Source: an uncultured Propionibacterium sp. (GTDB taxonomy: Bacteria > Actinomycetota > Actinomycetes > Propionibacteriales > Propionibacteriaceae). Taken from it: DNA of 41,676 nucleotides. Under the pieces are notes generated by a model. That model was not told the origin of the DNA and ran no database searches. It saw only the letters and a list, made by a program, of their open reading frames with translations. Shown one piece after another: positions 2,901-20,767 of the stretch; the first letter of the stretch is position 1, and each line of letters begins with the position of its first letter. Position numbers and translations under genes: made by a program. Location: assembly GCA_937867175.1 (NCBI GenBank), contig CALMKG010000310.1, forward strand, positions 1-41,676, written 5' to 3'.

Positions 2901-4046
2901 CTACCGGGCGTAGATCTTCTTGGCGCGCTCCAGCCCCGAGATGTAGCCCGAGCGGGCGTACTGGGTGGCATCCGCATTCGACGGGACGGCGAGCAAGCCG
3001 CGCGCCCGGCTGAGATCCAGCTGTCGACGGGTGAGCCAGGACTGCACGCCGTCCACCAACTGACCGGCGTAGTCGGAGCCGTGCCGCACCAGGGCGGCCG
3101 TGGTCATCACCACGTCGGCGCCCGCCAACAGGTACTTGACCACGTCCTCCACGGTCTCGACGCCGGTGGTTGCGGCGAGCGAGGCATTGACCCGGCCGTA
3201 CAGCGCCGAGATCCAGCTGCGGGGCAGCTTCGCCTCTTCCTGGGTGCTCAGACCGAAGCCGGGCAGGACCGCCATCTGGTCCAAGTCGATGTCGGGCTGC
3301 AGGTAGCGGTTGAACAGCACCAATCCATCCGCGCCCGCCGCGTCCAAGGCCTGCGCCATCTTGCCGAAACTGGAAAGGTAGGGGCTCAGCTTCATCGCAA
3401 CCGGGACGCCGACCCGCGACTTCACCTCGTCGAGAATGTCCAGGTAGCGCTGCTCCACCTCACGGGCCGCCGTGGTGATGTCGCCCGGCACGTAGTAGAC
3501 ATTGAGCTCGATGGCCGCGGCGCCGGCGTCCTGCATACGCCGGGCGTTCTGCGTCCACTCGCCGGTGGTCGAGCCGTTAAGGCTGGCGATCAGCGGCACA
3601 TCGATGACCGGGGCCGCCTTCTCGATCAGCTCCAGGTACGTCCTTGTCAGGCCGGAGTCGTTGCTCGGCGCGGTGGGGAAGTAGCTGAGCGCTTCAGCGA
3701 AGCTCTCGGTGCCCTGCTCGGCCAACGCAGTCTCCCGCGCCGCCTCGTGGCGGATCTGCTCCTCGAACAGCGAGTACATGACGACCGCACCCACACCGCC
3801 GGCGGCCAGCGACTTGATGCCGTCCACCGTCTGGCTCAACGGGCCGGCCGAGGCGACCACCGGATTGCGCAGCCACAGGCCCATGTACCGCGTCCGCAGG
3901 TCGACGGGCCGAGACTGGTTCCGCTCGGCCTCGACGACCTGCGATCCGTTGGGCGCCAGCTGATCGGTTGCGCTGCTGCCCATCGCGGTCTTCTGCCGAT
4001 GCGACTCGGCCGCTGCCCGCAGGGCTTCAGGATCGAACTTCGACAT
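2901..4046 (-). CDS. DHODH-like FMN flavoprotein in the PFOR operon
   Basis: This 381-residue TIM-barrel protein resembles dihydroorotate dehydrogenase (COG0167) but is probably not one. After a polar N-terminal tail of about 50 residues, the barrel begins at LRNPVVASAGPLSQT. The conserved lysine motif MKLSPYLS and the phosphate-binding end TTGVETVEDVVKYLLAGADVV suggest that FMN is bound. The catalytic loop, NxSCPN or similar in true DHODHs, reads LNVYYVP here, and the protein contains no cysteine. It therefore lacks the usual Cys or Ser base and any Fe-S ligands. It is the third gene of the PFOR operon, and its ATG shares a base with the nifJ stop (TGATG). An in-frame GTG lies one codon upstream. 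It may take electrons from the PFOR complex; its substrate is unknown. Confidence 0.85.
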   Translation of the reverse strand: MSKFDPEALRAAAESHRQKTAMGSSATDQLAPNGSQVVEAERNQSRPVDLRTRYMGLWLRNPVVASAGPLSQTVDGIKSLAAGGVGAVVMYSLFEEQIRHEAARETALAEQGTESFAEALSYFPTAPSNDSGLTRTYLELIEKAAPVIDVPLIASLNGSTTGEWTQNARRMQDAGAAAIELNVYYVPGDITTAAREVEQRYLDILDEVKSRVGVPVAMKLSPYLSSFGKMAQALDAAGADGLVLFNRYLQPDIDLDQMAVLPGFGLSTQEEAKLPRSWISALYGRVNASLAATTGVETVEDVVKYLLAGADVVMTTAALVRHGSDYAGQLVDGVQSWLTRRQLDLSRARGLLAVPSNADATQYARSGYISGLERAKKIYAR

Positions 4047-7000
4047 CACCGGGTCTCCTTCCGGGCATCGGGGCTGAACATCTCGGCGGGACGGCCAGCC
4101 ATCATCTCGTACTCCTGGTAGCGGCGCAGTACGTGCTCCTGGCCGAGGTCGAGGAGCCGACGCGCCTCATCGGGGTCGGACTGCATCAGCATCTTGAAGC
4201 GCAACTCGTTCTTGCGGTAGTCGTTCAGCGAGATCCGCGGACGCGGCGAGTCGAGCAGGAACGGGTTGCGGCCCTCGTTGCGTAGCACCGGGTTGAACCG
4301 GATCAGCGGCCAGTGACCCGAGGCCACCGCCTTGTACTGCTGCTCCAGGCCCTTGCGCATGTCGATGCCGTGGCTGATGCAGTGGCTGTAGGCGATGATC
4401 AGGCTCGGGCCGTCGTAGGCCTCAGCCTCGCGGAACGCCTTGAGCGTCTGCTGCGGATCGGCGCCCATCGCGACCCGGGCCACGTAGACGTGGCCATAGG
4501 CCACCGCCTGCATCGCCAGGTCTTTCTTGTTGGTCGTCTTGCCCGCCGTGGCGAACTTCGCCACCGCGCCCAAAGGTGTCGACTTGGACGACTGCCCGCC
4601 GGTGTTCGAGTAGACCTCGGTGTCCATCACCAAGATGTTCACGTTGCGTCCGGACGCCAGCACGTGGTCGAGACCGGCCGAGCCGATGTCGTAGGCCCAG
4701 CCGTCGCCGCCGATGATCCACACCGACCTGCGCAGCAGGTGGTCGGCCACCGACCTCAGGTCGTCGACGAGCGGACCGGCGAGCTCGTCGAGACGCTCAT
4801 GCAGTCGCTGGATGTGCCGGTATTGGATCCGCAGCTCGTGCATGGTCTCTTGCGGCCCGTACAGCAGGCCGTCGACCAGTTCGTCATCAGCGATCTCACC
4901 GCGCAGTTCCGCCAGCCGCCTGCGGGCCAGTTCAGTGTGCAGGTCGGCGGCCAGCCGCATGCCCAGGCCGAACTCGGCGTTGTCCTCGAACAGTGAGTTC
5001 GACCAGGCCGGGCCGCGTCCCTCGTCGTTCTTGGCCCACGGGGTGGTGGGCAGGTTGCCGCCATAGATGGACGAGCAGCCGGTGGCGTTGGCCACCTGCA
5101 GCCGGTCACCGAAGAGCTGGGTGAGCAGCTTCAGATAAGGCGTCTCGCCGCAGCCCGAGCAGGCGCCCGAGAACTCGAACAGTGGGGTGAGGAACTGCAC
5201 GCCACGCACCGAGCCGAAGTTGACCCGGCTGCGTCGTGGCCGCGGCAGCGTCTCGAAGAACTTGACGTTCGCCCGCTGCTTGGTCCGATCCAGCACCGGC
5301 GCCAGGTTGATCGCCTTGCGTTGCGGCTGACCGATCGGCGAGACCGGGCAGGCCTCGACGCACAGCCCGCAGCCGGTGCAGTCCTCGGCGTAGATCTGCA
5401 GGGTGTAGCGGGTATGCGGCAGGCCGGCCGCGTCGAGAGGGGCCGATTCGAAGCTGGACGGGGCGTCGGCCAAGTGTTGCGGCTCGTAGTACTTGGCCCG
5501 GATCACCGCGTGCGGGCAGACGAACGAGCAGTTGCCGCACTGGATGCAGGTCTCGGGATCCCAGACGGCGATGATGTCGGAGATGTTCCGCTTCTCGTAC
5601 TGGGTGGTGCCGCTCGGATACGAACCATCCACCGGAAGCTTGCTGACCGGCAGATCGTCCCCCCGATCGACCAGCATCGCGGCGGTGACCTCGCGCACGA
5701 AGTCGGGCGCGTCCTGCGGCACCGCGGCGAGATAGCCGTGGTGGCTGGTGATGTGGTCGGGAACCTCGATCTTGTGCAACTGCGCAACCGCGCTGTCGAC
5801 GGCCACATGGTTCTTGCGGACGATCTCCATCGACTTGCGGGCGTAGGTCTTGGTGATCGATTCCTTGATCTTGTCGATCGCCAGATCACGAGGCAGGACG
5901 CCTGAGATCGCGAAGTAGCAGGTCTGCAGCACCGTGTTGGTGCGCCCACCCAGACCGGCCAGCCGGGCCACCTCATTGGCGTTGATCGCGTAGACGTCGA
6001 TGCCCAAGTCGATGATGCGTTGCTGCATCGGTGCGGGCAGCCGGTCCCAGATCTCGTCGGCCGGGAACGGCGCGTTCAACAGCAGCGTGGTGCCGTCGAC
6101 CCGTTCACCGTCAGGGCTGAAAATCGCCGGACGCGCGAACTCCAGCACGTCGATCCGTTCCAGGATCGACCAGTGGTGGCAGCCGATGAAGCCGGCCTTG
6201 TTGACCAGGTAGGGTGCCTTGATCGGGTCGGGGCCGAAGCGCAGGTGACTGGTGGTGCGGGAACCGGACTTCTTCGAGTCGTAGACGAAGTAGCCCTGAG
6301 CGTAGGTGTCGGCGTCCGAACCGAGGATCTTGATGGTGTTCTTGTTCGCGCCGACGGTGCCGTCGGAGCCCATGCCGTAGAAGACCGCACGCTTGGTGAG
6401 CGGGTCTTCCAGGTCGATAGTCGGGTCGTAGTCGAGTGACAGCAGCGTGACGTCGTCCTTGATGCCGACCGTGAAGCGGGGACGCGGGGCGTCCTTGGCC
6501 AGCTCGGTGAAGACCGCCTCGGCCATCGCGGGGGTGAAGTCTTTGCTCGACAGACCGTACCGGCCGCCGATGACGCGGGGCAGGATGGCCCGCTCACCCA
6601 AGCTGACCGCCTCGGCCAAGGCGGCCGTGACGTCCAGGAAGAGCGGCTCGCCGCCCGAACCGGGCTCCTTGGTGCGGTCGAGCACCGCGATCTTGGTGAC
6701 CGATGCCGGGATGGCGGCCAGCACAGCGTCGGTCGGGAAGGGGCGGTAGAGCCGGATGACCAGCATGCCGACCTTCTCGCCCTTGGTGCGCAGGTGCTGG
6801 AGCGCCTGCTCGACCACTTCGGCCCCGGAACCCATCACGACGACCAAGCGCTCGGCCTGGGGATCACCGATGTATTCGACCAGGTGGTACTGGCGTCCGG
6901 TGAGGGCAGCGAACTTGTCCATCTGTTCCTGCACAATGCCGGGAACCGCCAGATAGAACGGGTTGGCCGACTCGCGTCCCTGGAAGTAGACGTCGGGGTT

Positions 7001-7759
7001 CTGCGCGGTGCCGCGGATGAACGGGTGCGCGGGGCTGAGCGCCCGCTCGCGGTGCTGCAAGACCAGCCGCTCGGGTACCATGGCGCGCAACTGGGCGTCT
7101 TCCAGCATGTCGCAGGTGTTCAACTCGTGGCTGGTGCGGAAGCCGTCGAAGAAGTGCATGAACGGAACGCGGGAGTGCATGGTGGCGGCCTGGGCGATCA
7201 GGGCGTTGTCGTGGCACTCCTGCACCGAGTTGGACGCCAGCATCGCCCAACCGGTTTGGCGAGTGGCCATCACGTCCTGGTGGTCGCCGAAAATCGACAG
7301 GCCCTGCGCGGCCAGCGACCGAGCCGCCACGTGCATGACGGTGCTGGTCAGCTCACCGGCGATCTTGTACATGTTGGGGATCATCAGCAGCAGGCCCTGG
7401 GACGCGGTGAACGTCGTCGACAGGGCACCTGCCTGCAACGCGCCGTGCAGCGCGCCAGCCGCGCCACCCTCGGATTGCATCTCGATGACCGTCGGCACCT
7501 GCCCCCAGATATTGGGACGATCGACCGCCGCCCACTCGTCGGCGAGCTCTGCCATCGGTGAGCTCGGGGTGATCGGGTAGATCGAACACAGCTCGTTGAC
7601 ACGGAACGCGACGTCGGCGGCAGCGGTGTTCCCGTCGATGATGGAGCGTTCGCTCGGCTTGGCAGCGGGTTGGTCGCGGTCGAGGTTGGCCACCGGGTCT
7701 TCGGCACCCAGCATGTTCGGGTGGGGTGCCGGAATCTTCGCATCAGCAGTGGTAGTCAT
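4046..7759 (-). CDS. nifJ: Pyruvate:ferredoxin (flavodoxin) oxidoreductase, single chain
   Basis: This 1237-residue enzyme oxidises pyruvate and CoA to acetyl-CoA and CO2 while reducing ferredoxin or flavodoxin. All domains are fused. The pyruvate-binding domain carries YPITPSSPMAE near residue 60. The second transketolase-like domain follows, then a gamma domain (FYGMGSDGTVGANKN near 459). The 2x[4Fe-4S] domain has CIQCGNCSFVC near 737 and CTGCGLCVEACP near 792. The C-terminal TPP domain shows ACSGCGET near 865, CSSIYGGN near 895 and GGDGWAYDIG near 1017. It is slightly longer than typical PFORs because of an N-terminal extension of about 35 residues. The ATG at 7759 shares its first base with the upstream stop (TGATG). 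The enzyme is oxygen-sensitive in most bacteria, which fits an anaerobic lifestyle. Nothing suggests a break or frameshift. Confidence 0.96.
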   Translation of the reverse strand: MTTTADAKIPAPHPNMLGAEDPVANLDRDQPAAKPSERSIIDGNTAAADVAFRVNELCSIYPITPSSPMAELADEWAAVDRPNIWGQVPTVIEMQSEGGAAGALHGALQAGALSTTFTASQGLLLMIPNMYKIAGELTSTVMHVAARSLAAQGLSIFGDHQDVMATRQTGWAMLASNSVQECHDNALIAQAATMHSRVPFMHFFDGFRTSHELNTCDMLEDAQLRAMVPERLVLQHRERALSPAHPFIRGTAQNPDVYFQGRESANPFYLAVPGIVQEQMDKFAALTGRQYHLVEYIGDPQAERLVVVMGSGAEVVEQALQHLRTKGEKVGMLVIRLYRPFPTDAVLAAIPASVTKIAVLDRTKEPGSGGEPLFLDVTAALAEAVSLGERAILPRVIGGRYGLSSKDFTPAMAEAVFTELAKDAPRPRFTVGIKDDVTLLSLDYDPTIDLEDPLTKRAVFYGMGSDGTVGANKNTIKILGSDADTYAQGYFVYDSKKSGSRTTSHLRFGPDPIKAPYLVNKAGFIGCHHWSILERIDVLEFARPAIFSPDGERVDGTTLLLNAPFPADEIWDRLPAPMQQRIIDLGIDVYAINANEVARLAGLGGRTNTVLQTCYFAISGVLPRDLAIDKIKESITKTYARKSMEIVRKNHVAVDSAVAQLHKIEVPDHITSHHGYLAAVPQDAPDFVREVTAAMLVDRGDDLPVSKLPVDGSYPSGTTQYEKRNISDIIAVWDPETCIQCGNCSFVCPHAVIRAKYYEPQHLADAPSSFESAPLDAAGLPHTRYTLQIYAEDCTGCGLCVEACPVSPIGQPQRKAINLAPVLDRTKQRANVKFFETLPRPRRSRVNFGSVRGVQFLTPLFEFSGACSGCGETPYLKLLTQLFGDRLQVANATGCSSIYGGNLPTTPWAKNDEGRGPAWSNSLFEDNAEFGLGMRLAADLHTELARRRLAELRGEIADDELVDGLLYGPQETMHELRIQYRHIQRLHERLDELAGPLVDDLRSVADHLLRRSVWIIGGDGWAYDIGSAGLDHVLASGRNVNILVMDTEVYSNTGGQSSKSTPLGAVAKFATAGKTTNKKDLAMQAVAYGHVYVARVAMGADPQQTLKAFREAEAYDGPSLIIAYSHCISHGIDMRKGLEQQYKAVASGHWPLIRFNPVLRNEGRNPFLLDSPRPRISLNDYRKNELRFKMLMQSDPDEARRLLDLGQEHVLRRYQEYEMMAGRPAEMFSPDARKETR

Positions 7760-9387
7760 CACTTCTCCGCAATCATCTCGATGGCGTGCACGGGGCACTG
7801 GTCGTAACAGGTGGCGCATCCGGTGCACTTGGCGTAGTCGAAGCGGTAGCGATGGCCCTTGCCGAGCTTGATGATGGCGTCCTCGGGGCAGGCGCCATAG
7901 CAGCCGTCGCATTCGAAGCAGTTGCCGCAGCTCAGGCAGCGCCGGGCCTCGAACTCGGCCTCTTCGCTGGTCAGGCCTTTGACGACCTCGTCGAAGTCTT
8001 GGACGCGTTCACTGGCTGACAGTTCCGACTGGATGGAGCGGGGATGGTCACCGAAGTACCACAGGTTCAGATCGTCGAAGCCCACGATCGGGTGCTTGAT
8101 CTTCGGCGACTCCTGCCGGCGGTTCAGCCAGGCATCGATCTTTTTGGCGGCCTTCTTGCCGTGCCCGACGCCGATCGTCACCGTGCGCTCCGACGGCACC
8201 GCGTCGCCGCCGGCGAAGATGCCGGGCACGTCGGTCATCAAGCTGGCCGGGTCGACCTGCACGACATCGTCGGTGAACCGCAGCCCGGGGATGTTGCGCA
8301 GGAAGCCGGTGTCGGCCATCTGGCCGACGGCCATGATCACGGTGTCGGCAGGCAGCTTCTCGAACTTGCCGGTGCCGCGCGGCTTGCCCCACTCGTCGAG
8401 TTCCATGACCTCGACCTCGATCTCTTCGGAGACCTCGCTGATGGTGCGCAGCCAGTGGACCTTCACGCCCTCCTGCTCGGCGTCGGCGAGTTCTTCGGCG
8501 TGGGCTGGCATCTGTTCCTGGGTGCGACGGTAGATGATGACGGCCTCCTCGGCCCCCATCCGGATCGCCGACCGCGCGGCGTCCATGGCGGTGTTGCCGC
8601 CGCCGTAGACGGCCACCCGGCGACCGATCTTCGGCTTCTCGCCGGACGCGACGTCGCGCAGGAAGTCGACCGCGTCGACCATCTTGCCGGCGTCCATGCT
8701 GGGGATCTCGACCCGCTTCGACAGGTGCGCGCCGATCGCGATGAAGACGGCGTCGAACCGGCCGGCACGCTGCTCTTCGAGCAGGTCGTGCACCGGGTGG
8801 TTGAGCACGATCTTGACACCGAGGTCTGAGATGCGTTTGATCTCGGCGTCCACCACGTCGCGGGGCAGCCGGTACTCCGGGATGCCGTAGCGCATCATGC
8901 CGCCGGGCAACTCGCCGGCATCGTGGATCTCGACCTCATGGCCGACGCGGGCCAGGTGGTAGGCGGCCGACAGGCCTGACGGCCCGGCGCCGATGACCAG
9001 CACCCGGTAGCCGGTGTTGTTGCGTGGGGGATTGAAGCGCCAGCCGTTCTCGATGGCGAGGTCGCCCAGGTAACGCTCGACCGAGTGGATCGAGACGGCG
9101 CCGTCCAGTTCGACGCGGTTGCAGGCGGTCTCGCAGGGGTGGTAGCAGACACGGCCATGGATCGCCGGGAACGGGTTGTCGCGAACCAGCTGACGCCACG
9201 CGGCCTCGGCCTGGTTCTCTTTGATCAGGCGAAGCCATTCCTGGATGTTCTCACCGGCGGGGCAGGCGTTGTTGCACGGCGGGAGCAGGTCGACGTAGAT
9301 CGGCATCCGGGTCCGAACCGGTCCAACCCGGCCGGCGCCCTCCGCCAAGTCAGGCAGTTGGGTGATGTCAGGACGTCCATCAAACAT
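7759..9387 (-). CDS. GltD-like FAD/NAD(P) oxidoreductase with C-terminal 2[4Fe-4S] ferredoxin domain
   Basis: This 542-residue protein belongs to the glutamate synthase small-subunit/PreT family of NAD(P)-linked flavoproteins. Its N-terminal Fe-S region has CNNACPAG (Cys38, Cys42) and CYHPCETAC. The FAD-binding Rossmann motif VIGAGPSGLSAAYHLA follows near residue 130, and the NAD(P)-binding motif VYGGGNTAMDAA near 260. A ferredoxin-like tail carries CLSCGNCFECDGCYGACP (near 481) and CTGCATCYDQCP (near 521). No large glutamate synthase subunit is nearby. Instead the gene leads the PFOR operon and is coupled to nifJ by a TGATG overlap. It is therefore likely to move electrons between reduced ferredoxin or PFOR and NAD(P). 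A dihydropyrimidine-dehydrogenase-like role together with the DHODH-like protein is an alternative. The direction of electron flow cannot be read from the sequence. Confidence 0.9.
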   Translation of the reverse strand: MFDGRPDITQLPDLAEGAGRVGPVRTRMPIYVDLLPPCNNACPAGENIQEWLRLIKENQAEAAWRQLVRDNPFPAIHGRVCYHPCETACNRVELDGAVSIHSVERYLGDLAIENGWRFNPPRNNTGYRVLVIGAGPSGLSAAYHLARVGHEVEIHDAGELPGGMMRYGIPEYRLPRDVVDAEIKRISDLGVKIVLNHPVHDLLEEQRAGRFDAVFIAIGAHLSKRVEIPSMDAGKMVDAVDFLRDVASGEKPKIGRRVAVYGGGNTAMDAARSAIRMGAEEAVIIYRRTQEQMPAHAEELADAEQEGVKVHWLRTISEVSEEIEVEVMELDEWGKPRGTGKFEKLPADTVIMAVGQMADTGFLRNIPGLRFTDDVVQVDPASLMTDVPGIFAGGDAVPSERTVTIGVGHGKKAAKKIDAWLNRRQESPKIKHPIVGFDDLNLWYFGDHPRSIQSELSASERVQDFDEVVKGLTSEEAEFEARRCLSCGNCFECDGCYGACPEDAIIKLGKGHRYRFDYAKCTGCATCYDQCPVHAIEMIAEK

Positions 9388-14152: not shown

Positions 14153-14809
14153 ATGAACCAACTGCTGAAGGGTGCGCTGGGGACGCTTGGGGTGGCGGTG
14201 GCTGGGTATTTCGCCGTGGGGGAGGCCAGCCACGCTTGGGCGCACCGGCAAGGTCTGGGCCATCCGCCGGCGGTGGCCGGACGCCGTGAGGTGATCCTGC
14301 TGCTGGGCTACCCGTCCAAACCCGACGGCAGCCCGCACCCGCTGCAACGCTGGCGGGCTCGGATCGCCGCCCGATCGATCAGTGCGCAGGCGGCGTCCAG
14401 CCAAATCGTCTGCACCGGGGCGGCGGTGCGGGGCGGACGCTCGGAGGCCGCAGTGCTGGCCGATCTGCTGCGCGAGCTGGGTGTGGCGGACGCCCAGCTC
14501 GTGCTGGAGGAGCAGGCTCGCACCACTTGGCAGAACGTCGAGTTCGCGATCCCGCTGCTGCGCCAGGCCGACGTGATCAAGGTGGCCTCGAATTCGCTGC
14601 ATGCCTGGCGTGCACGGCGGTTCCTGGCTCGTCAGCGTCCTGACCTTGCTGAGCGGGTGGCGGCGGCCGACGACTACCGCTTCGGCGAGTGCTGGTGGCT
14701 CAAGACGCCGCTGGCGGTCTACGAGGCGGTGGGCGCGTGGCGGGAGTGGCGTCACCCACGGCTGCCGGACGCGTCCCCGCCGCCCGCAGCGGTCAGCGGC
14801 TGCCCCTAA
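14153..14809 (+). CDS. DUF218 (YdcF/SanA/ElyC-type) membrane-associated protein
   Basis: This 218-residue protein belongs to the DUF218 family, whose members include SanA and ElyC of E. coli and are linked to envelope biogenesis. One hydrophobic N-terminal segment (GALGTLGVAVAGYFAVGEA) may anchor it. Family motifs are REVILLLGYPSK, IVCTGAAVRGGRSEAAVLADLLRELGV and LEEQARTTWQNVEFA, followed by the strand VIKVASNSLHAWRARRF. No biochemical function can be assigned. The ATG at 14153 follows a G-rich AGGATTGGTGGG. Its last 17 bases overlap the convergent end of cydC (14793-14809), so the two messages are antisense there. Confidence 0.85.
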   Translation: MNQLLKGALGTLGVAVAGYFAVGEASHAWAHRQGLGHPPAVAGRREVILLLGYPSKPDGSPHPLQRWRARIAARSISAQAASSQIVCTGAAVRGGRSEAAVLADLLRELGVADAQLVLEEQARTTWQNVEFAIPLLRQADVIKVASNSLHAWRARRFLARQRPDLAERVAAADDYRFGECWWLKTPLAVYEAVGAWREWRHPRLPDASPPPAAVSGCP

Positions 14810-16472
14810 CTGCCCACCTGCCGAGGTCGACCACCCGATCGCAGCGAGCCATCAGGTTCTCGTCGTGGGTGATCACCAGCAGCGAGGTTCCGGTCAGGGA
14901 CGCGAAGAGGTCGTCCAGCAGGGCGTCCGCGGTCTCCCGGTCCAGGTGTTCGGTCGGCTCGTCCAAGATGACCAGCCCAGGGCTCTCTGCGCCCACCAGC
15001 ACTCGTGCCAGGGCCACCCGCTGCGCCTCGCCGCCGGACAAGGTGGCGCCCTGTTCGCCGACGATCCGTTCCGGATCCAGCGTGAGCCCGGCGCGGACCA
15101 TCGCCGTCGCCACTTGCTGTTCACCGGCGTCCTTGTTGCCGATCTTCACGTTCTCCGCCAGCGTGGTGGCGAAGATGTGTGCGTCCTGGGCGAGGTAGCT
15201 GATCCGTGCCGGGGACGACAGGGCGCCGCCGCGCGCCGGGATCAGCCCCATGACGGTGGCAGCCAGCGTTGTCTTGCCCAAGCCGGACGGCCCGACCAGC
15301 GCCACCGATTCACCCGGCGCCACGCTCAGGTCGACGCCCCGCAGGATCGGTTCGGCGTCCGGCCAGCCGGCCGCCACGTCTACCAGTCGCAGCCCGGTCG
15401 CCGGTTCGGCGCCGGCCGCGGGCGTGTCCACCCGATCACCGGCACCTACCGGTTCGGCTTCCAGCACATCCAGGACGCGGCCCAGTGCGGTACGCGCCCT
15501 GGTGAGCGTCTGGGCGGCCTTGGTGAAGTCGGCGTAGACCTCGTGCAGCGCCAGCGGCACCAGCGCCAGGATGGCCAGATTGCGGGCGAGCATGTCGCCC
15601 GAGATCACGGCCTGCCCGCCGATCAGCAGCGCCGCGGCGACCGCCACCCCGGTCGAGGTCAACTGCATTCCGGAGGCGAGGCCCCTGGTCCAAGCGCCCT
15701 TCGACTCGGTCTCGCGCAACTCGGCGTCGACCGCGGACAGCCGGGAGACTGCGGCATCGGTTTGCCCGTAGGCCACCAGATCGGGCGCGCAGCGGGCCAG
15801 CTCGCGAACTTGGTCAGCCAACTCGCCGCGAGCCGGAACTGCCCGCTGGTCGGCGGCTCGTGACCAGCGTTGCGCCAACCAGGGCACGACGATGCCGGCG
15901 AAGACTGAGGTGGCCGCCAAGACCACCGCGAACAGCGGGCTGAAGACCGACAAGATGATGCTGGCGCCGAGCATCACGATCGCCGCCGAGGCGAACGGCA
16001 GCACCACCCGGACCACCAGGTCGACGATCGCCTCGACGTCGGCGGTGACGCGCACCAGCAGGTCGCCATGCCGGCGTCCCAACAAGGTGGTGCCGCTCAG
16101 CTTGTCGTAGGTGATGAGCCGCAGGGCACTTTGCATCCGTAGTGCCAGGTTGTGGCCGACCAGCCGTTCGAGGTAGCGGCCCACCCCTCGTCCGATGCCG
16201 AAGAACCGCACCCCGGCTGAGGCGGCCAGCAGGTACATCACCGGGGGATGCTCGGCGGCGCGGCTGAGCAGCCAGGCCGAGGTGCCCATCAGTGCGACCG
16301 ACGCGCCGCTGGCGAAGGTGGCGAGCGAGATCGCCACCACCAACTGCTGCCAGCCGTGGTCGGCCTGCCTCAGTAGCCGGCCGACCAGCGCAGCCACGTC
16401 GCGTGCCGCCGCCACGTCTCGCGGCGGTTTCGTCTCGGGTCTTGCCGCCAAGTCCGGCGCCGCCGCAGTCAT
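14793..16472 (-). CDS. cydC: Thiol-reductant ABC exporter subunit CydC
   Basis: This 559-residue half-transporter pairs with CydD to export glutathione- or cysteine-type reductants needed for assembly of cytochrome bd. A six-helix membrane domain fills the first 300 or so residues. The nucleotide-binding domain has the Walker A motif GPSGLGKTTLA, signature LSGGEAQRVALARVL and Walker B LVILDEPTEHLD. The gene overlaps cydD by four bases (ATGA) and is the last gene of cydA-cydB-cydD-cydC. It matches CydC rather than a generic lipid exporter mainly through this context and its order behind CydD. In actinobacteria lacking glutathione, the exported thiol is not established. Confidence 0.92.
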   Translation of the reverse strand: MTAAAPDLAARPETKPPRDVAAARDVAALVGRLLRQADHGWQQLVVAISLATFASGASVALMGTSAWLLSRAAEHPPVMYLLAASAGVRFFGIGRGVGRYLERLVGHNLALRMQSALRLITYDKLSGTTLLGRRHGDLLVRVTADVEAIVDLVVRVVLPFASAAIVMLGASIILSVFSPLFAVVLAATSVFAGIVVPWLAQRWSRAADQRAVPARGELADQVRELARCAPDLVAYGQTDAAVSRLSAVDAELRETESKGAWTRGLASGMQLTSTGVAVAAALLIGGQAVISGDMLARNLAILALVPLALHEVYADFTKAAQTLTRARTALGRVLDVLEAEPVGAGDRVDTPAAGAEPATGLRLVDVAAGWPDAEPILRGVDLSVAPGESVALVGPSGLGKTTLAATVMGLIPARGGALSSPARISYLAQDAHIFATTLAENVKIGNKDAGEQQVATAMVRAGLTLDPERIVGEQGATLSGGEAQRVALARVLVGAESPGLVILDEPTEHLDRETADALLDDLFASLTGTSLLVITHDENLMARCDRVVDLGRWAVRGSR

Positions 16473-18160
16473 CTGTCCACCTTCTCAACGTGCTCGCCGG
16501 TATAGGTGGGCGCAGGCAGCGGCCCGGGGGAGACCATCTCGTCGGCCAACGCCAGCAGGGCCGGACGATGACTCACCACGACCGCACCCACCCCCGCGGC
16601 CCGTACCGCGGCGACCGCCACCGCCTCGGTGGCCTGGTCGAGACCCGCAGTCGGCTCGTCCAGCACGAGCAGCCGTGCCCCACCCAGCTCGATCCGCAGC
16701 AGCGCCCGCGCCAACGCGACCCGGCGTCGCTCGCCGGCCGACAGCCCCTCGCCGTCGTCGGCGATCGGTCGCGCCGGTTCGAGCGCCTGCCCGCCGGCCC
16801 GGTCCAGACTCGCGCGCACCTGGGCGTCGGTCGCAGCGGGGAAACCGAGCCGCACGTTGGACGCGATGGTGCCGCGCAGCATGCCCGGGTCTTGGCCCAC
16901 CCAAGCGAGCTGGCGGCGCCAGGCGTCCATGTCGAGTTCGGCCAGGTCGACGCCCCCGACCCGGACGGCGCCGGAGGTGGGCGCGATGAAACCCATCAGC
17001 ACGTTCAAGGCCGTCGACTTGCCGCTGCCCGAACGTCCGACCAAGGCCAGCACCTCACCGGGCCGGATGGTGCAACTCAGGTCTTCCAGCGAGGCCCGGT
17101 CGGCGCCCGGGTAACGCACCCCGACCTGGTCGAACTCGATCTCGACGCCGGCCAGGTCACCGGGCGCGACGTGGCCGCCGACCGGGCTGCGTTCGCTGTT
17201 CTCAATGATCCCGAAGGCGGCTTCGGCAGCAGCTGTGCCGTCGGCCGAGTCGTGGAAGTGCACGCCGACCGCGCGGACCGGGATGTACGCCTCCGGCGCC
17301 AGGATCAGGATGAACAGCGCAGTGGTCAGGTCGAGCTGGAAGTCGACCACCCGGAAGCCGACGCTGACCGCGACCAGGGCCACCGAGAGGGTGGCGAGCA
17401 GTTCCAGCACGCCACCACTCAGGAAGGCGATTCGCAGCGTCTTCATCGTCTCGGTCCGCGAGGCGTCCTCGGTCAACCGCAGGCCACGCAGCTGCGCGCG
17501 GGCGCGTCCGAAGACCTGCAGGGTGGGCAGCCCGGTGATCAGGTCGGCAAAGTGGTTGGCGAGCCTGGTCTGCACCTGGTAGCGCCGACGCACCTGCGCC
17601 TGGGTGTGCCGGCCGATCATGATCATGAACAGCGGGATCAGCGGCAGGGTGACGGCGATGATCGCGGCCGAGACCCAGTCCTGCCCCAGCACCACTGCCA
17701 GCATCAGCAGCGGGATGAACGCGGCCATCACCAGCTGGGGCAGGTACTTGGCGAAGTACCCGTCGAGGGCGTCCAAGCCTTGCGTGGCGAGGTGGATCAG
17801 GGCGCTGGACGAGGTGGACGTGTCATTGGGACGCACGAGCCGGGCGGTCATCAGCTCGGTTCGCAGCGTCGACTTCACCGCCGCGGACGCCCGGTGTGCC
17901 AGCCACGAGTTCAGCCAGCTCAACCCGCCGCGCAGCACGAAGATGGCGATGATGGCCAGCACATAGGACGCGAAGCCGGGCAGCGGGCCGTCGAAATCGA
18001 GCCGGCCACTGTCGAAGACCCCGGCGACGGCGTGGGCGATCAACCAGGCCTGCGCGATGATGCAGCCGGCGTTCAGGACGCCAGTCGCCGCGACGGCGAC
18101 CAGGAAGCCCCTGGTCGCCGTCGCGCGCTGGAGTAGACGCTTGTCGAGTGCCCCCGCCAA
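16469..18160 (-). CDS. cydD: Thiol-reductant ABC exporter subunit CydD (probable TTG start)
   Basis: This half-transporter, about 563 residues long, is the partner of CydC. The membrane domain begins with LAGALDKRLLQRATATRGFLV. The ATPase domain has Walker A GRSGSGKSTALN, signature LSAGERRRVALARALL with Ala in place of the first Gly, and Walker B LLVLDEPTAGLD. The start is uncertain. No ATG or GTG lies close to the conserved N-terminus, and the nearest candidate is a TTG at 18160, two bases after the cydB stop. The next ATG, at 18253, would add about 31 residues encoded inside cydB that do not look like a CydD N-terminus. Translation therefore probably depends on ribosomes finishing cydB. Confidence 0.88.
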   Translation of the reverse strand: MAGALDKRLLQRATATRGFLVAVAATGVLNAGCIIAQAWLIAHAVAGVFDSGRLDFDGPLPGFASYVLAIIAIFVLRGGLSWLNSWLAHRASAAVKSTLRTELMTARLVRPNDTSTSSSALIHLATQGLDALDGYFAKYLPQLVMAAFIPLLMLAVVLGQDWVSAAIIAVTLPLIPLFMIMIGRHTQAQVRRRYQVQTRLANHFADLITGLPTLQVFGRARAQLRGLRLTEDASRTETMKTLRIAFLSGGVLELLATLSVALVAVSVGFRVVDFQLDLTTALFILILAPEAYIPVRAVGVHFHDSADGTAAAEAAFGIIENSERSPVGGHVAPGDLAGVEIEFDQVGVRYPGADRASLEDLSCTIRPGEVLALVGRSGSGKSTALNVLMGFIAPTSGAVRVGGVDLAELDMDAWRRQLAWVGQDPGMLRGTIASNVRLGFPAATDAQVRASLDRAGGQALEPARPIADDGEGLSAGERRRVALARALLRIELGGARLLVLDEPTAGLDQATEAVAVAAVRAAGVGAVVVSHRPALLALADEMVSPGPLPAPTYTGEHVEKVDR

Positions 18161-18162
18161 GA

Positions 18163-19245
18163 TCAGTACCCGGAGGTGGCGGACACCGGCGCATTCGTTG
18201 CCGCCGGCATGTTCTTGGTGCTGATGCGCTTCCGGAAGATGTAGTAGCTCCATGCGGAGTACGCGAGCACGATCGGGACGAAGATGAGCGCGGCGATGCT
18301 CATCACCCGCAGCGTGTACGGCGTGCTCGCGGCCACATTCATGTTGAACGAATCATCGGCCGAGACGAAGCCGAGGGTGCCGTACATCTTGATGAAGATC
18401 GTGACGAACAACATCAGGATCGAAAGCCCGGTACCGATGAAGGCCTGGTTCTCGCGAGCCTGGTTGCCGGACTCGCTGTGCATCACGATGGCGTAGCCCA
18501 GTGCAGCCACCGAGATGGCACCGGTCACCCACATCGCCACACCGGCGCCGGAGCCCAGGTACGGATTGTTCGAAGCCGGGTAGGCGATGTTGCCGATTAC
18601 GATGAACGCGGCCAGCAGGGCCACAGCGATCGGGCCGAGCATCTTGACGGCGCGGTTGGCCTTCTCGCGGACGCTGTCGGCGGTCTTCAGGCAGAGGAAG
18701 ACCGCCCCGTGCACGATGAACAGCGTCACGGTAAGGGCGCCGCCAAGCAGGCCGAATGGGTGGAAGAGTTCGAGGAGGCCTTGGGTCAGGTGTGGTGGGT
18801 CACCGGCGACCGGCATGCCTCGCCACATGTTCGCGAAGGCGATGCCGAGCACGAGCGAAACGATCAACGAGCCGATCGTGGCGCTCCAGTCGAAGGTGTC
18901 GCGCCAGTTGTCGTCCGGCATCAGCGCGCGGTACTCGAAGGCCACCCCTCGGGCGATGAGCCCGAGCAGCACCAGCAGCAGGGGCAGGTACAGACCGCTG
19001 AACAATGTCGCGTACCAGCCGGGGAAGGCTGCGAACATGGCACCGCCCGCGGTGATCAGCCAGACCTCGTTGCCGTCCCAAGTCGGGCCGACAGTGTTGA
19101 TCATGACGCGGCGTTCGGTGGGATCCTTGCCGATCACCGGGTAGAGCATCGCGACGCCGAAGTCGAAACCCTCCAGGAAGAAGAAGCCGATCCACAGCAC
19201 TGCGATCAGCAGGAACCAGATGAAGATCAACTGTTCGTGAGTCAT
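18163..19245 (-). CDS. cydB: Cytochrome bd oxidase subunit II
   Basis: This 360-residue polytopic membrane protein is the second core subunit of the bd quinol oxidase. The N-terminus MTHEQLIFIWFLLIAVLWIGFFFLEGFDFGV shows the conserved GFD motif, followed by INTVGPTWDGNEVWLI and GGAMFAAFPGWYATLFS, both typical of CydB. Later helices include GAISVAALGYAIV and FVPIVLAYSAWSYYIFRKRI. A GGAGCTGGAAA stretch lies just before the ATG and can serve as ribosome binding site. It follows cydA by 16 bases. Its C-terminal tail after the last helix is short and polar. Together with CydA it reduces oxygen to water at low oxygen tension. Confidence 0.96.
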   Translation of the reverse strand: MTHEQLIFIWFLLIAVLWIGFFFLEGFDFGVAMLYPVIGKDPTERRVMINTVGPTWDGNEVWLITAGGAMFAAFPGWYATLFSGLYLPLLLVLLGLIARGVAFEYRALMPDDNWRDTFDWSATIGSLIVSLVLGIAFANMWRGMPVAGDPPHLTQGLLELFHPFGLLGGALTVTLFIVHGAVFLCLKTADSVREKANRAVKMLGPIAVALLAAFIVIGNIAYPASNNPYLGSGAGVAMWVTGAISVAALGYAIVMHSESGNQARENQAFIGTGLSILMLFVTIFIKMYGTLGFVSADDSFNMNVAASTPYTLRVMSIAALIFVPIVLAYSAWSYYIFRKRISTKNMPAATNAPVSATSGY

Positions 19246-19261
19246 GTTTCCAGCTCCGTGA

Positions 19262-20767
19262 TCAGTAGGCGAACGACAGCGGGGCGTCGTCGTCGGTCCG
19301 CACCTTCGGTGGGGAGACGTCCGGTAGGCCCTTGGCGATGTAGGTGAAGAAGAGCTTCAGCACGACGACCGCGATGATGCCGTAGACGAGGGTGTAGGCG
19401 ATCATGCTGGTCAGTACGGAGGCGGCACCGACGTTCGGTGAGTTGGCGGTCCAGGTCGGCAGCACGCCGTAGATGATCCACGGCTGGCGGCCCATCTCGG
19501 TGAGGATCCAGCCGAACGAGTTCGCGATCAGCGGGAAGAACGGCAGCGTCCCCATCGTGTACTTCCACAGGTTGTTGGTCGGTGGCGTGCCGCCCTTGCG
19601 GGTGAACCACAAGATGAGTAGCGCGATGCCCATCGACACGAAGCCGAGCCCCATCATCATGCGGAAGCTCCAGAAGGAGACCATCACGTTCGGCACCGGG
19701 TCGACCGAAAGCTGCGCGAGTTCGCTGGAGAACTCCTCCTGCAACTGGTTACGCGAGCCATCCCAGGCCCGGTGGCCGTCGGTCAGGTATTGCTCGGTCA
19801 GGTCGTTGATGCCCTGCACTTCGGCGTTCGGATCGTTGAAGGCGAGGACGGACAAGACATAGGGCACCTCCCAGCTGAAGACCTCGGTGACCCGGGTGAT
19901 GCCCTCGGCGTCGCGCTCTTGGGTGTAGATGCCCACGATCGCGAAGCCAGCAGCTGTCTGGGTGTCGAGCAGGCCCTCGGACGCGGCGAGTTTCATCGGC
20001 TGGAACTTGGCGCCGACCTGCGCCTGGTAATGGCCCGAGCCCATCACGGCGATCGAAGCGACCAGGAGCACGTAGGCGCCCATCTTGGCGGTCTTGCGCC
20101 AAATACCGGCGTCGGGATGCACGGTGCCTTCGGGGGCCTCCTTGGCCACCTTGGCGAGTTTCCAGCCGGCCACGCCCGCCAACAGCCCGCCGGAGACCAT
20201 CAGCGCGGCCGGGATCTGGTGGCTGAACGCCGCGATGAAGAACGGGTTGGTGAACAGCATGCTGAAGTCGACCAGTTCGGCACGACCGTTGTTGTAGGTG
20301 GCCCCAGCCGGGTTCTGCATGAACGCATTGGCAGCCAGGATGAAGACCGCCGAGATGGTTCCGCCGAGGGCCGTCAGGTAGATCATCAGGTTGTGGACCG
20401 GGCCGGACAACCGGTCCCAGCCGAAGATCCAGATGCCGATGAAGGTGGATTCCAAGAAGAAGGCGACCAGCGCTTCGAGCGCGAGGGGTGCGCCGAAGAT
20501 GTCGCCGAAGAAGCGGGAGTACTCCGACCAGTTCATGCCGAACTGGAACTCCTGGACGATGCCGGTCACCACGCCCGCGGCGAAGTTGATCAGGAAGAGC
20601 TTGGCGAAGAACTTGGTCATCCGCAGCCACTGCACGTCCTTGGTGCGCAGCCACCGGGTCTCCATCACTGCGACCAGCCATGCGGTGCCGAGCGTGACGG
20701 GCACGAAGAAGAAGTGGTAGACAGTGGTGATTCCGAACTGCCAACGCGCGAGTACCTGGGCGTCCAT
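19262..20767 (-). CDS. cydA: Cytochrome bd oxidase subunit I
   Basis: This 501-residue membrane protein carries the three hemes and the quinol site of bd oxidase. The start MDAQVLARWQFGITTVYHFFFVP places His18 where the heme b595 ligand lies in E. coli CydA. The signature GRQPW is present in EMGRQPWIIYGVL. The periplasmic Q-loop region (KLAASEGLLDT through QLSVDP) is of the short type, with no large insert. No Shine-Dalgarno sequence precedes the ATG. A TAACGT hexamer seven bases upstream suggests a leaderless message. The 250-base gap to the divergent bioY is shared with the biotin operon. A half-site TTGTGA (20844-20849) in that gap recalls Rex operators but lacks its partner. Confidence 0.96.
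   Translation of the reverse strand: MDAQVLARWQFGITTVYHFFFVPVTLGTAWLVAVMETRWLRTKDVQWLRMTKFFAKLFLINFAAGVVTGIVQEFQFGMNWSEYSRFFGDIFGAPLALEALVAFFLESTFIGIWIFGWDRLSGPVHNLMIYLTALGGTISAVFILAANAFMQNPAGATYNNGRAELVDFSMLFTNPFFIAAFSHQIPAALMVSGGLLAGVAGWKLAKVAKEAPEGTVHPDAGIWRKTAKMGAYVLLVASIAVMGSGHYQAQVGAKFQPMKLAASEGLLDTQTAAGFAIVGIYTQERDAEGITRVTEVFSWEVPYVLSVLAFNDPNAEVQGINDLTEQYLTDGHRAWDGSRNQLQEEFSSELAQLSVDPVPNVMVSFWSFRMMMGLGFVSMGIALLILWFTRKGGTPPTNNLWKYTMGTLPFFPLIANSFGWILTEMGRQPWIIYGVLPTWTANSPNVGAASVLTSMIAYTLVYGIIAVVVLKLFFTYIAKGLPDVSPPKVRTDDDAPLSFAY

Follow-up and report, generated by a model that had tools for sequence, protein, structure and literature searches.

Through which proteins do electrons leave a pyruvate:ferredoxin oxidoreductase (PFOR) whose gene is wedged between those of two flavoproteins? 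The question is raised by contig CALMKG010000310.1 (assembly GCA_937867175.1) of an uncultured Propionibacterium sp., analyzed here over its whole length of 41,676 nucleotides (the window). Three minus-strand genes, at 9387-7759, 7759-4046 and 4046-2901, code for a GltD-like FAD/NAD(P) reductase with a ferredoxin domain (gene 1), PFOR (gene 2) and a protein resembling dihydroorotate dehydrogenase (DHODH; gene 3). We put at roughly 55% the probability that this operon specifies a PFOR from which electrons leave by two dedicated routes, through gene 1 to NAD(P) and through an FMN in gene 3. The first-pass annotation of the window had named the same three families in the same order, and the models NF009410, TIGR02176 and NF005741 recovered them; the one-base TGATG overlaps that it placed at 7759 and 4046 are present at both junctions when the sequence is read directly. 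The features of the operon are the following:

7759..9387, minus strand: gene 1 (P0001, 542 amino acids), GltD/NfnB-like FAD and NAD(P) reductase with an Fe-S domain at the N terminus and a PorD-like 8Fe domain at the C terminus; predicted to be the outlet from PFOR to NAD(P)
7795..7938, minus strand: C-terminal Cys stretch of gene 1, residues 484-531, with an extra C-x2-C and two C-x2-C-x2-C-x3-C motifs
7757..7761, minus strand: TGATG joining the gene 1 stop (7761-7759) and the PFOR start (7759-7757)
4046..7759, minus strand: gene 2 (P0002, 1237 amino acids), single-chain NifJ-type pyruvate:ferredoxin oxidoreductase with POR, TPP and Fer4 domains
5348..5548, minus strand: Cys 738-804 of the PFOR ferredoxin domain (medial and distal clusters), the part missing from short PFORs of the Bacteroidota phylum
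4044..4048, minus strand: TGATG joining the PFOR stop (4048-4046) and the gene 3 start (4046-4044)
2901..4046, minus strand: gene 3 (P0003, 381 amino acids), DHODH-like barrel without the catalytic Cys of pyrimidine dehydrogenases; predicted FMN electron-outlet subunit of PFOR
3492..3503, minus strand: residues 182-185 of gene 3 (N-V-Y-Y), in the place of the N-x-S-C catalytic loop of dihydropyrimidine dehydrogenase (DPD) and DHODH

Gene 2 is a PFOR of the NifJ type (TIGR02176, 1695 bits, cut-off 911), with a thiamine diphosphate (TPP) domain and 12 of 12 cluster Cys in place. In this enzyme, electrons run along a proximal, a medial and a distal 4Fe-4S cluster, and the usual acceptors are ferredoxin or flavodoxin.

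Distribution and gene order

A GTDB scan with a 12-row profile of gene 3 gave at least 580 relatives among at least 589 pattern matches, of which the best 80 loci were analyzed. PFOR is matched upstream of gene 3 in 77 of them, the exceptions being L091 (at a contig start; a Brooklawnia metagenome-assembled genome [MAG] fragment with 92% identity to gene 3 over 157 residues), L089 (1.5 kb upstream) and L081 (10 kb upstream). A survey of the triplet across genomes had been proposed in the first-pass annotation as a check; 31 of the 80 loci, all from other genomes, share the three genes in the same order, so the arrangement is not due to chance. In another 26, PFOR and gene 3 are present and an upstream stretch of 1.7 kb or more contains no gene 1; 19 are too short upstream to judge and 4 lack a PFOR match at an E value of 1e-20. 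The start-stop gap in the triplets is 20 bases or fewer at 17/31 gene 1-PFOR and 18/31 PFOR-gene 3 junctions and ambiguous at the rest; the start chosen was the in-frame one closest to the preceding stop, which favors close spacing.

A PFOR tree (quick method, midpoint root) was built from the window and the 57 of 80 loci with an unbroken PFOR of at least 1150 amino acids, the triplets L034, L044 and L082 being absent. Its 58 rows divide into 29 triplet rows and 29 others on opposite sides of one fully supported branch, and none of 500 shuffles was as clean. Five of the 29 pair rows (L067, L075, L085, L092 and L093) meet a contig end upstream, and a search of each of these genomes found no gene-1 ortholog. 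The PFOR of the window groups with Propionibacteriaceae, and triplet rows come from Actinomycetota, Pseudomonadota (Rhodobacter capsulatus, Methylococcaceae, Contendobacter), Nitrospirota, Myxococcota, Acidobacteriota and Verrucomicrobiota, several of them MAGs, with the single Verrucomicrobiota MAG triplet placed beside the dividing branch. Since triplet rows are spread over so many phyla, these sequence comparisons suggest transfer of the cassette as a unit; a single origin is also compatible with them.

Adjacency was also tallied by hand from coordinates in three sets of genomes, those of the cyanobacterial and Bacteroidota phyla being built around the genomes that carry L078 and L064. Only the best few candidates were scored per genome (Actinomycetota, 2 for PFOR, 4 for gene 1 and 6 for gene 3; cyanobacterial phylum, 5 and 18; Bacteroidota phylum, 10 for gene 3 and 3 for PFOR), so a second or weak copy may have escaped detection, and an absence is valid only at the E value given. 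Among 296 Actinomycetota genomes, a NifJ-type PFOR over the cut-off is present in 77 and a gene 3 relative (E ≤ 1e-40) in 46 including the window's own; in 42 of the 45 others gene 3 adjoins PFOR or a PFOR fragment, G129 and G093 being unclear at contig ends and G042 having no PFOR over the cut-off. In that genome the DHODH-like gene (L134, G042:C301, 5053-5952) has three neighboring frames without a Pfam match at 1e-8. The order is reversed, with the DHODH-like gene upstream of PFOR, in six Actinomycetota genomes of one family (G019, G047, G071, G147, G158 and G232). Of 30 further loci that were fetched (the window's own excluded, and one being a second copy in the same assembly), 29 have a PFOR match beside gene 3. 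In the cyanobacterial phylum, gene 3 lies less than 1 kb from PFOR in 28 of the 32 genomes with both and 3 kb away in G406, while G332 has gene 3 and no PFOR. The 198 genomes of the Bacteroidota phylum include 108 with PFOR over the cut-off and 62 with gene 3 relatives (E ≤ 1e-60; 66 rows), and 49 of the 50 strong rows (at least 476 bits) adjoin PFOR, the exception (G589) being at a contig end.

Each flavoprotein without the other

Either flavoprotein gene can be found in the absence of the other. Orthologs of gene 1 (at least 55% identity) were found in 5/5 triplet genomes tested versus 0/27 genomes with PFOR and gene 3 only (21 with room upstream and 6 at contig ends), in a search that scored all candidates in every genome but one; 8 of the 27 carry merely paralogs of 35 to 41% identity. 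Gene 1 in turn has seven Actinomycetota orthologs (50 to 57% identity) in genomes with no NifJ-type PFOR over the cut-off and no gene 3 at E ≤ 1e-40, and a PorA-like gene lies upstream on the same strand in all seven non-NifJ loci fetched. In L117 and L121, family models identify PorC-PorA-PorB followed by gene 1; in L116 they identify PorA-PorB. These Por neighbors also match the PadE/G/I models, below their cut-offs. A GltD-like subunit encoded together with a 2-oxoacid oxidoreductase, as in Pad/Kor-type enzymes, is found with PFOR at 31/80 loci and with PorA-like genes at 7/7. Because its orthologs accompany both NifJ-type PFOR and multi-subunit Por enzymes, gene 1 looks like an NAD(P) module for 2-oxoacid oxidoreductases of differing architecture.

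Gene 1 belongs to NF009410 (PRK12771 reductase; 788.7 bits, cut-off 516), and its Pfam domains are Fer4_20, Pyr_redox_2 and a C-terminal Fer4, the last above its cut-off, with dicluster models below theirs. The PorD models match residues 484-542 at 41 bits, under their cut-offs of 120 and 60. In an alignment of 30 rows (29 of the 31 triplet loci, with L034 and L059 left out, and the window), 15 Cys (5 N-terminal and 10 C-terminal), Glu104 and the YRR motif (286-288) are invariant in every row. These Cys would suffice for two clusters in the GltD-like domain, to which a C-x2-C pair would come from the C-terminal side, and two more in the PorD-like domain. The protein also matches the NfnB structure 5jca_L (263 bits); its AlphaFold2 (AF2) model was poor (pLDDT 65) and was left unused. 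It is plausible that gene 1 serves PFOR as an NAD(P)-linked partner, in keeping with the link between PFOR and NAD(P) suspected in the first-pass annotation.

Residues kept and lost in gene 3

Gene 3 is a member of the DHODH-like family NF005741 (PRK07565; 427.5 bits, cut-off 303), its sole Pfam match at 0.001 is DHO_dh (PF01180), and it contains no cysteine. It falls well short of the dihydroorotate dehydrogenase models (PyrD; 89 bits with a cut-off of 270 for TIGR01037 and 28 with a cut-off of 200 for TIGR01036) and of PreA (67 bits, cut-off 335), whose C-terminal 4Fe-4S domain and catalytic Cys it lacks. By class, it scores 89 bits with class 1B PyrD, 67 with PreA and 30 with the quinone-linked class 2. 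The best PDB match of its AF2 model (pLDDT 86) is pig DPD (Z 30.8, rmsd 2.7, 274 aligned). The first-pass annotation had regarded the two flavoproteins as the modules of DPD, split into a PreT/PreA pair; the types of module are indeed those of DPD, but gene 3, free of cysteine, has no Fe-S part, and the label of a split PreT/PreA pair is misleading because the flavoproteins are separable.

In DHODH, the catalytic residue (Cys or Ser) lies in an N-x-S-C/S loop. The alignment of gene 3 has 62 rows (56 of 71 usable rows, 5 further loci and the window). In a profile alignment to DPD and PyrDB, the catalytic Cys671 of DPD falls on Tyr185 of gene 3, a position with Cys in 0/62 rows and Ser in 3/62, and Lys574 falls, with moderate alignment confidence, on Val89 (Val in 61/62 rows, Ile in 1/62). 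Lys709 of DPD corresponds to Lys219, and the PyrDB Asn (Asn736 of DPD by spacing) to Asn246, both kept in 62/62 rows. Judged from its sequence, gene 3 is not a pyrimidine enzyme, and the DHODH-like family is predicted to retain its FMN contacts.

One scan with a single protein as query, whose reach is limited to close relatives, returned no viral relative of gene 3. Fusions of PFOR with the DHODH-like gene were sought as same-frame read-through in the 80 loci and none was accepted; an apparent case in L050 was discarded, the match crossing a stop codon.

PFORs without a ferredoxin domain

The eight ferredoxin-domain Cys are kept in 58/58 full-length PFORs compared and in none of three short PFORs. 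The latter (1070 to 1076 amino acids) come from three Bacteroidota-phylum genomes with weaker gene 3 rows (G490, G587 and G627) and lack exactly the ferredoxin domain: they have no Fer4 match, and the four proximal-cluster Cys are retained. In all three genomes the short PFOR is followed after 10 to 12 bp by the DHODH-like gene and then by a flavodoxin gene. Short PFORs were seen only in the 198-genome Bacteroidota-phylum set, no search aimed at them having been made in other phyla. The loci, all of one lineage, are as follows:

L124, 2639-7552: short PFOR, DHODH-like gene and flavodoxin
L125, 2340-7139: short PFOR, DHODH-like gene and flavodoxin
L136, 3053-7890: short PFOR, DHODH-like gene and flavodoxin

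A second DHODH-like clade lies upstream of fumarate reductase genes (L126, 926-6183; L127, 1584-5969; L128, 1620-6139; L129, 938-6156). All four loci have a match to the flavoprotein subunit; L128 and L129 also have one to the cytochrome b subunit, and L128 to the Fe-S subunit. A PF04199 cyclase-like gene is found between the DHODH-like and fumarate reductase genes in L126 and L127, and in L129 that place is taken by an open reading frame of equal length. The remaining 9 of the 16 weaker Bacteroidota-phylum rows are not beside a PFOR over the cut-off. Eleven of the 16 were fetched (L124-L133 and L136), with neighbors read in all but L130, L132 and L133; in L131 the neighbors are an acyl-CoA ligase and an SDR gene.

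Association with cytochrome oxidase

Gene 3 tracks cytochrome oxidase (COX1) among PFOR genomes in two phyla. The 117 genomes of the cyanobacterial phylum include 83 with PFOR (E ≤ 1e-150), 33 with gene 3 (E ≤ 1e-60) and 65 with COX1, and among those with PFOR, gene 3 is carried by 32/39 with COX1 versus 0/44 without. For the 77 Actinomycetota PFOR genomes the counts are 32/35 with COX1 versus 6/42 without, the Fisher values for which ignore relatedness. The genome lists behind these tables were transcribed by hand and the cyanobacterial two-by-two table was entered as counts. PMC11368403 lists nifJ, sll0743 and sll0744 (DHODH by annotation) of Synechocystis under one transcription unit, among genes transiently induced in dark microoxic conditions.

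Known systems

NfnA is a PyrK/FNR-type subunit. Gene 1 resembles the large subunit of NfnAB but has an extra C-terminal 8Fe domain and a Cys pair placed C-terminally, and no NfnA-type (PyrK/FNR-type) domain was detected in gene 3, a separate NfnA elsewhere in the genome not having been sought. DPD and PreT-PreA share their module types with the cassette, including the fold of the gene 3 model; the differences are that gene 3 has lost the equivalents of the catalytic Cys and Lys574, that gene 1 is the protein with the 8Fe domain and that the two proteins do not make one unit. Among NAD(P)-linked 2-oxoacid oxidoreductases, phenylglyoxylate:NAD+ oxidoreductase is one precedent. Another is the 2-oxoglutarate:NADP+ oxidoreductase of Azoarcus evansii (Ebenau-Jehle 2003, as cited in PMC10134865). 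The likeness to such enzymes lies in a 2-oxoacid oxidoreductase joined by a GltD-family FAD/NAD(P) subunit, a comparison of subunit types and not of PadH/KorC sequences; unlike them, the cassette has a single-chain NifJ oxidoreductase plus a DHODH-like protein.

McCubbin is reportedly the author of a 2020 Propionibacterium study of the flavoprotein genes flanking PFOR. In PMC7650540 (2020), a Propionibacterium PFOR is flanked by glutamate-synthase-small-chain-like and DHODH-like genes, by description the same three-gene arrangement, and the flanking genes and PFOR are co-transcribed and identically regulated. According to the same paper, P. freudenreichii was severely crippled in growth when PFOR (nifJ1) was knocked out. 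It proposes a bifurcating complex that conserves energy, with ferredoxin and NAD(P) bound by an NfnB-like subunit and quinols oxidized by an "NfnA-like" one. Bifurcation, which the first-pass annotation had also raised, is therefore not a new idea for this cassette. Our results differ from the published description in that the pair of PFOR and gene 3 can occur apart from the gene 1 reductase, with representatives in many phyla, and in the nature of gene 3. An "NfnA-like, quinone-type" gene 3 is not supported, because class 1B PyrD and PreA outscore class 2 and no NfnA-type domain was matched; the NfnA-like identity was accordingly rejected. Beyond PMC7650540 and PMC11368403, we recognized no paper treating the pair of nifJ and a DHODH-like gene in a search that covered the subscription literature thinly. 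New within the literature searched are the finding that the flavoproteins are separable, the pattern with respect to oxygen and the PFOR with a deleted domain.

Proposed electron routes and alternative explanations

What was observed, namely gene content, order, conservation, separability, residue losses and co-occurrence, would best be accommodated as follows. Pyruvate and CoA would be oxidized at the TPP of PFOR and the electrons passed on through the proximal, medial and distal clusters. At one exit, the PorD-like 8Fe domain of gene 1 would hand them to FAD and then to NAD(P)+, giving a pyruvate:NAD(P)+ oxidoreductase like the Azoarcus enzymes. At the other, gene 3, a DHODH-fold FMN protein that would have lost its pyrimidine chemistry, may dock on PFOR and, through its flavin, pass electrons to flavodoxin or into the quinone pool. 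This second exit could stand in for the ferredoxin domain of PFOR and may be favored in oxygen-respiring lineages; in the short PFORs, the FMN route would have to substitute for the domain that is missing.

A bifurcating or confurcating complex, in which PFOR, the NfnB-like gene 1 and gene 3 would couple the oxidation of ferredoxin and quinol to the reduction of NAD(P)+, or the reverse, seems improbable to us. The potential of pyruvate is low enough for direct, downhill reduction of NAD(P)+, so bifurcation is possible but unnecessary. Three genes that travel as one cassette and the match of gene 1 to NfnB agree with such a complex, but each flavoprotein also occurs with an oxidoreductase and without the other, and gene 3, matched by DHO_dh alone, is not of the PyrK/FNR type and, among characterized models, is nearest to class 1B PyrD and PreA, not class 2. 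The proposal in PMC7650540 drew on co-transcription, co-regulation and the crippled nifJ1 knockout, which affected PFOR and not the flavoproteins. A later paper, PMC8360058, attributes the coupling of ferredoxin and quinol in P. freudenreichii to FixABCX, which was detected in the proteome of this species and which PMC7650540 did not find.

A role of gene 3 in protection or maturation, shielding or repairing the clusters of PFOR under oxygen in place of carrying electrons, is also unlikely, if a shade less so. It would account for the way gene 3 tracks COX1 in two phyla and for its absence, at E ≤ 1e-60, from all 44 COX1-less PFOR genomes of the cyanobacterial phylum; yet the short PFORs, with no ferredoxin domain, retain the DHODH-like gene followed by flavodoxin, and the invariance of the FMN-contact residues Lys219 and Asn246 would be unexpected in a mere shield. 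We rejected a true split DPD that flanks PFOR by happenstance, which we regard as highly improbable: FAD, Fe-S and DHODH-fold modules are all present and the gene 3 model fits DPD best, but the PreA score, the missing Cys and Fe-S domain of gene 3, a conserved partner that is PFOR and the lack of gene-1 orthologs in all 27 PFOR and gene 3 genomes tested argue against it.

Several points weigh against a PFOR with two exits. We infer the FMN, the FAD, complex formation, the electron routes and the acceptors. Genes 1 and 3 co-occur in one cassette, whose PFORs lie on one side of a single branch, so the two may have a joint function. Gene 3 is found without a NifJ-type PFOR over the cut-off in G042, with no PFOR match in 10 kb upstream in L081 and distant from PFOR in 3/32 cyanobacterial-phylum genomes (G398, G369 and G431), and its family is not tied to PFOR only, because the second clade sits by fumarate reductase (L126-L129). 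The three short PFORs, at 80 and 91% identity, represent a single lineage, and in two of these genomes the DHODH-like protein has about 33% identity to gene 3. Eight Actinomycetota genomes with gene 3 and no over-cut-off PFOR, five of them with COX1, fall outside the COX1 table, and six COX1-negative PFOR genomes have gene 3 (four of the reversed-order family, G086 and the window's own). The COX1 counts are confounded by phylogeny, offer few independent contrasts and are a lead, not proof.

With a confidence somewhat short of even odds, we go a step beyond the two-exit operon and propose that the nifJ-adjacent DHODH-like family is an unrecognized PFOR subunit of oxygen-respiring lineages. Its FMN might accept electrons near the proximal cluster and be able to replace the whole ferredoxin domain, as in the short PFORs; in the triplet it would be a second outlet beside NAD(P), and the same barrel near fumarate reductase suggests that its FMN may relay electrons more generally, to flavodoxin or menaquinone.

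Genomic surroundings

The operon is convergent with a heavy-metal P-type ATPase gene (622-2895), 5 bp separating the end of the latter from the gene 3 stop. A gene for a thiamine-binding protein (PF01910; 9520-9837) lies upstream of gene 1 in the same orientation; PFOR is a thiamine diphosphate enzyme. The window's own genome is COX1-negative, yet the window contains cydAB-type genes with two ABC half-transporters in the cydDC position. This cytochrome bd cluster (14796-20767, minus strand) consists of half-transporter genes at 14796-16472 and 16472-18253 and cydB- and cydA-type genes at 18166-20767.

The source assembly (607 contigs, 93% complete, 7.8% contaminated) holds a second pair of PFOR and DHODH-like genes, without gene 1, on contig C545 (L123, 2620-7234), next to Aldolase_II and FGGY kinase genes. 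Its PFOR is 53% identical over residues 739-1222. Contamination was considered as the origin of this pair; since its composition agrees with that of the window (r 0.985), it was kept and probably belongs to the same genome, bearing in mind the 7.8% contamination of the assembly.

Implications

The short PFOR is a ready natural experiment, and together with the separability of the flavoproteins and the oxygen pattern it makes the role of the DHODH-like family directly testable. If the proposal is right, a function would be at hand for a large family labeled dihydroorotate dehydrogenase-like in databases. Dedicated NAD(P) and FMN outlets in many respiring bacteria could then account for the way in which facultative bacteria obtain NAD(P)H by means of PFOR, and also for the retention of PFOR by cyanobacteria in an oxygenic cell.

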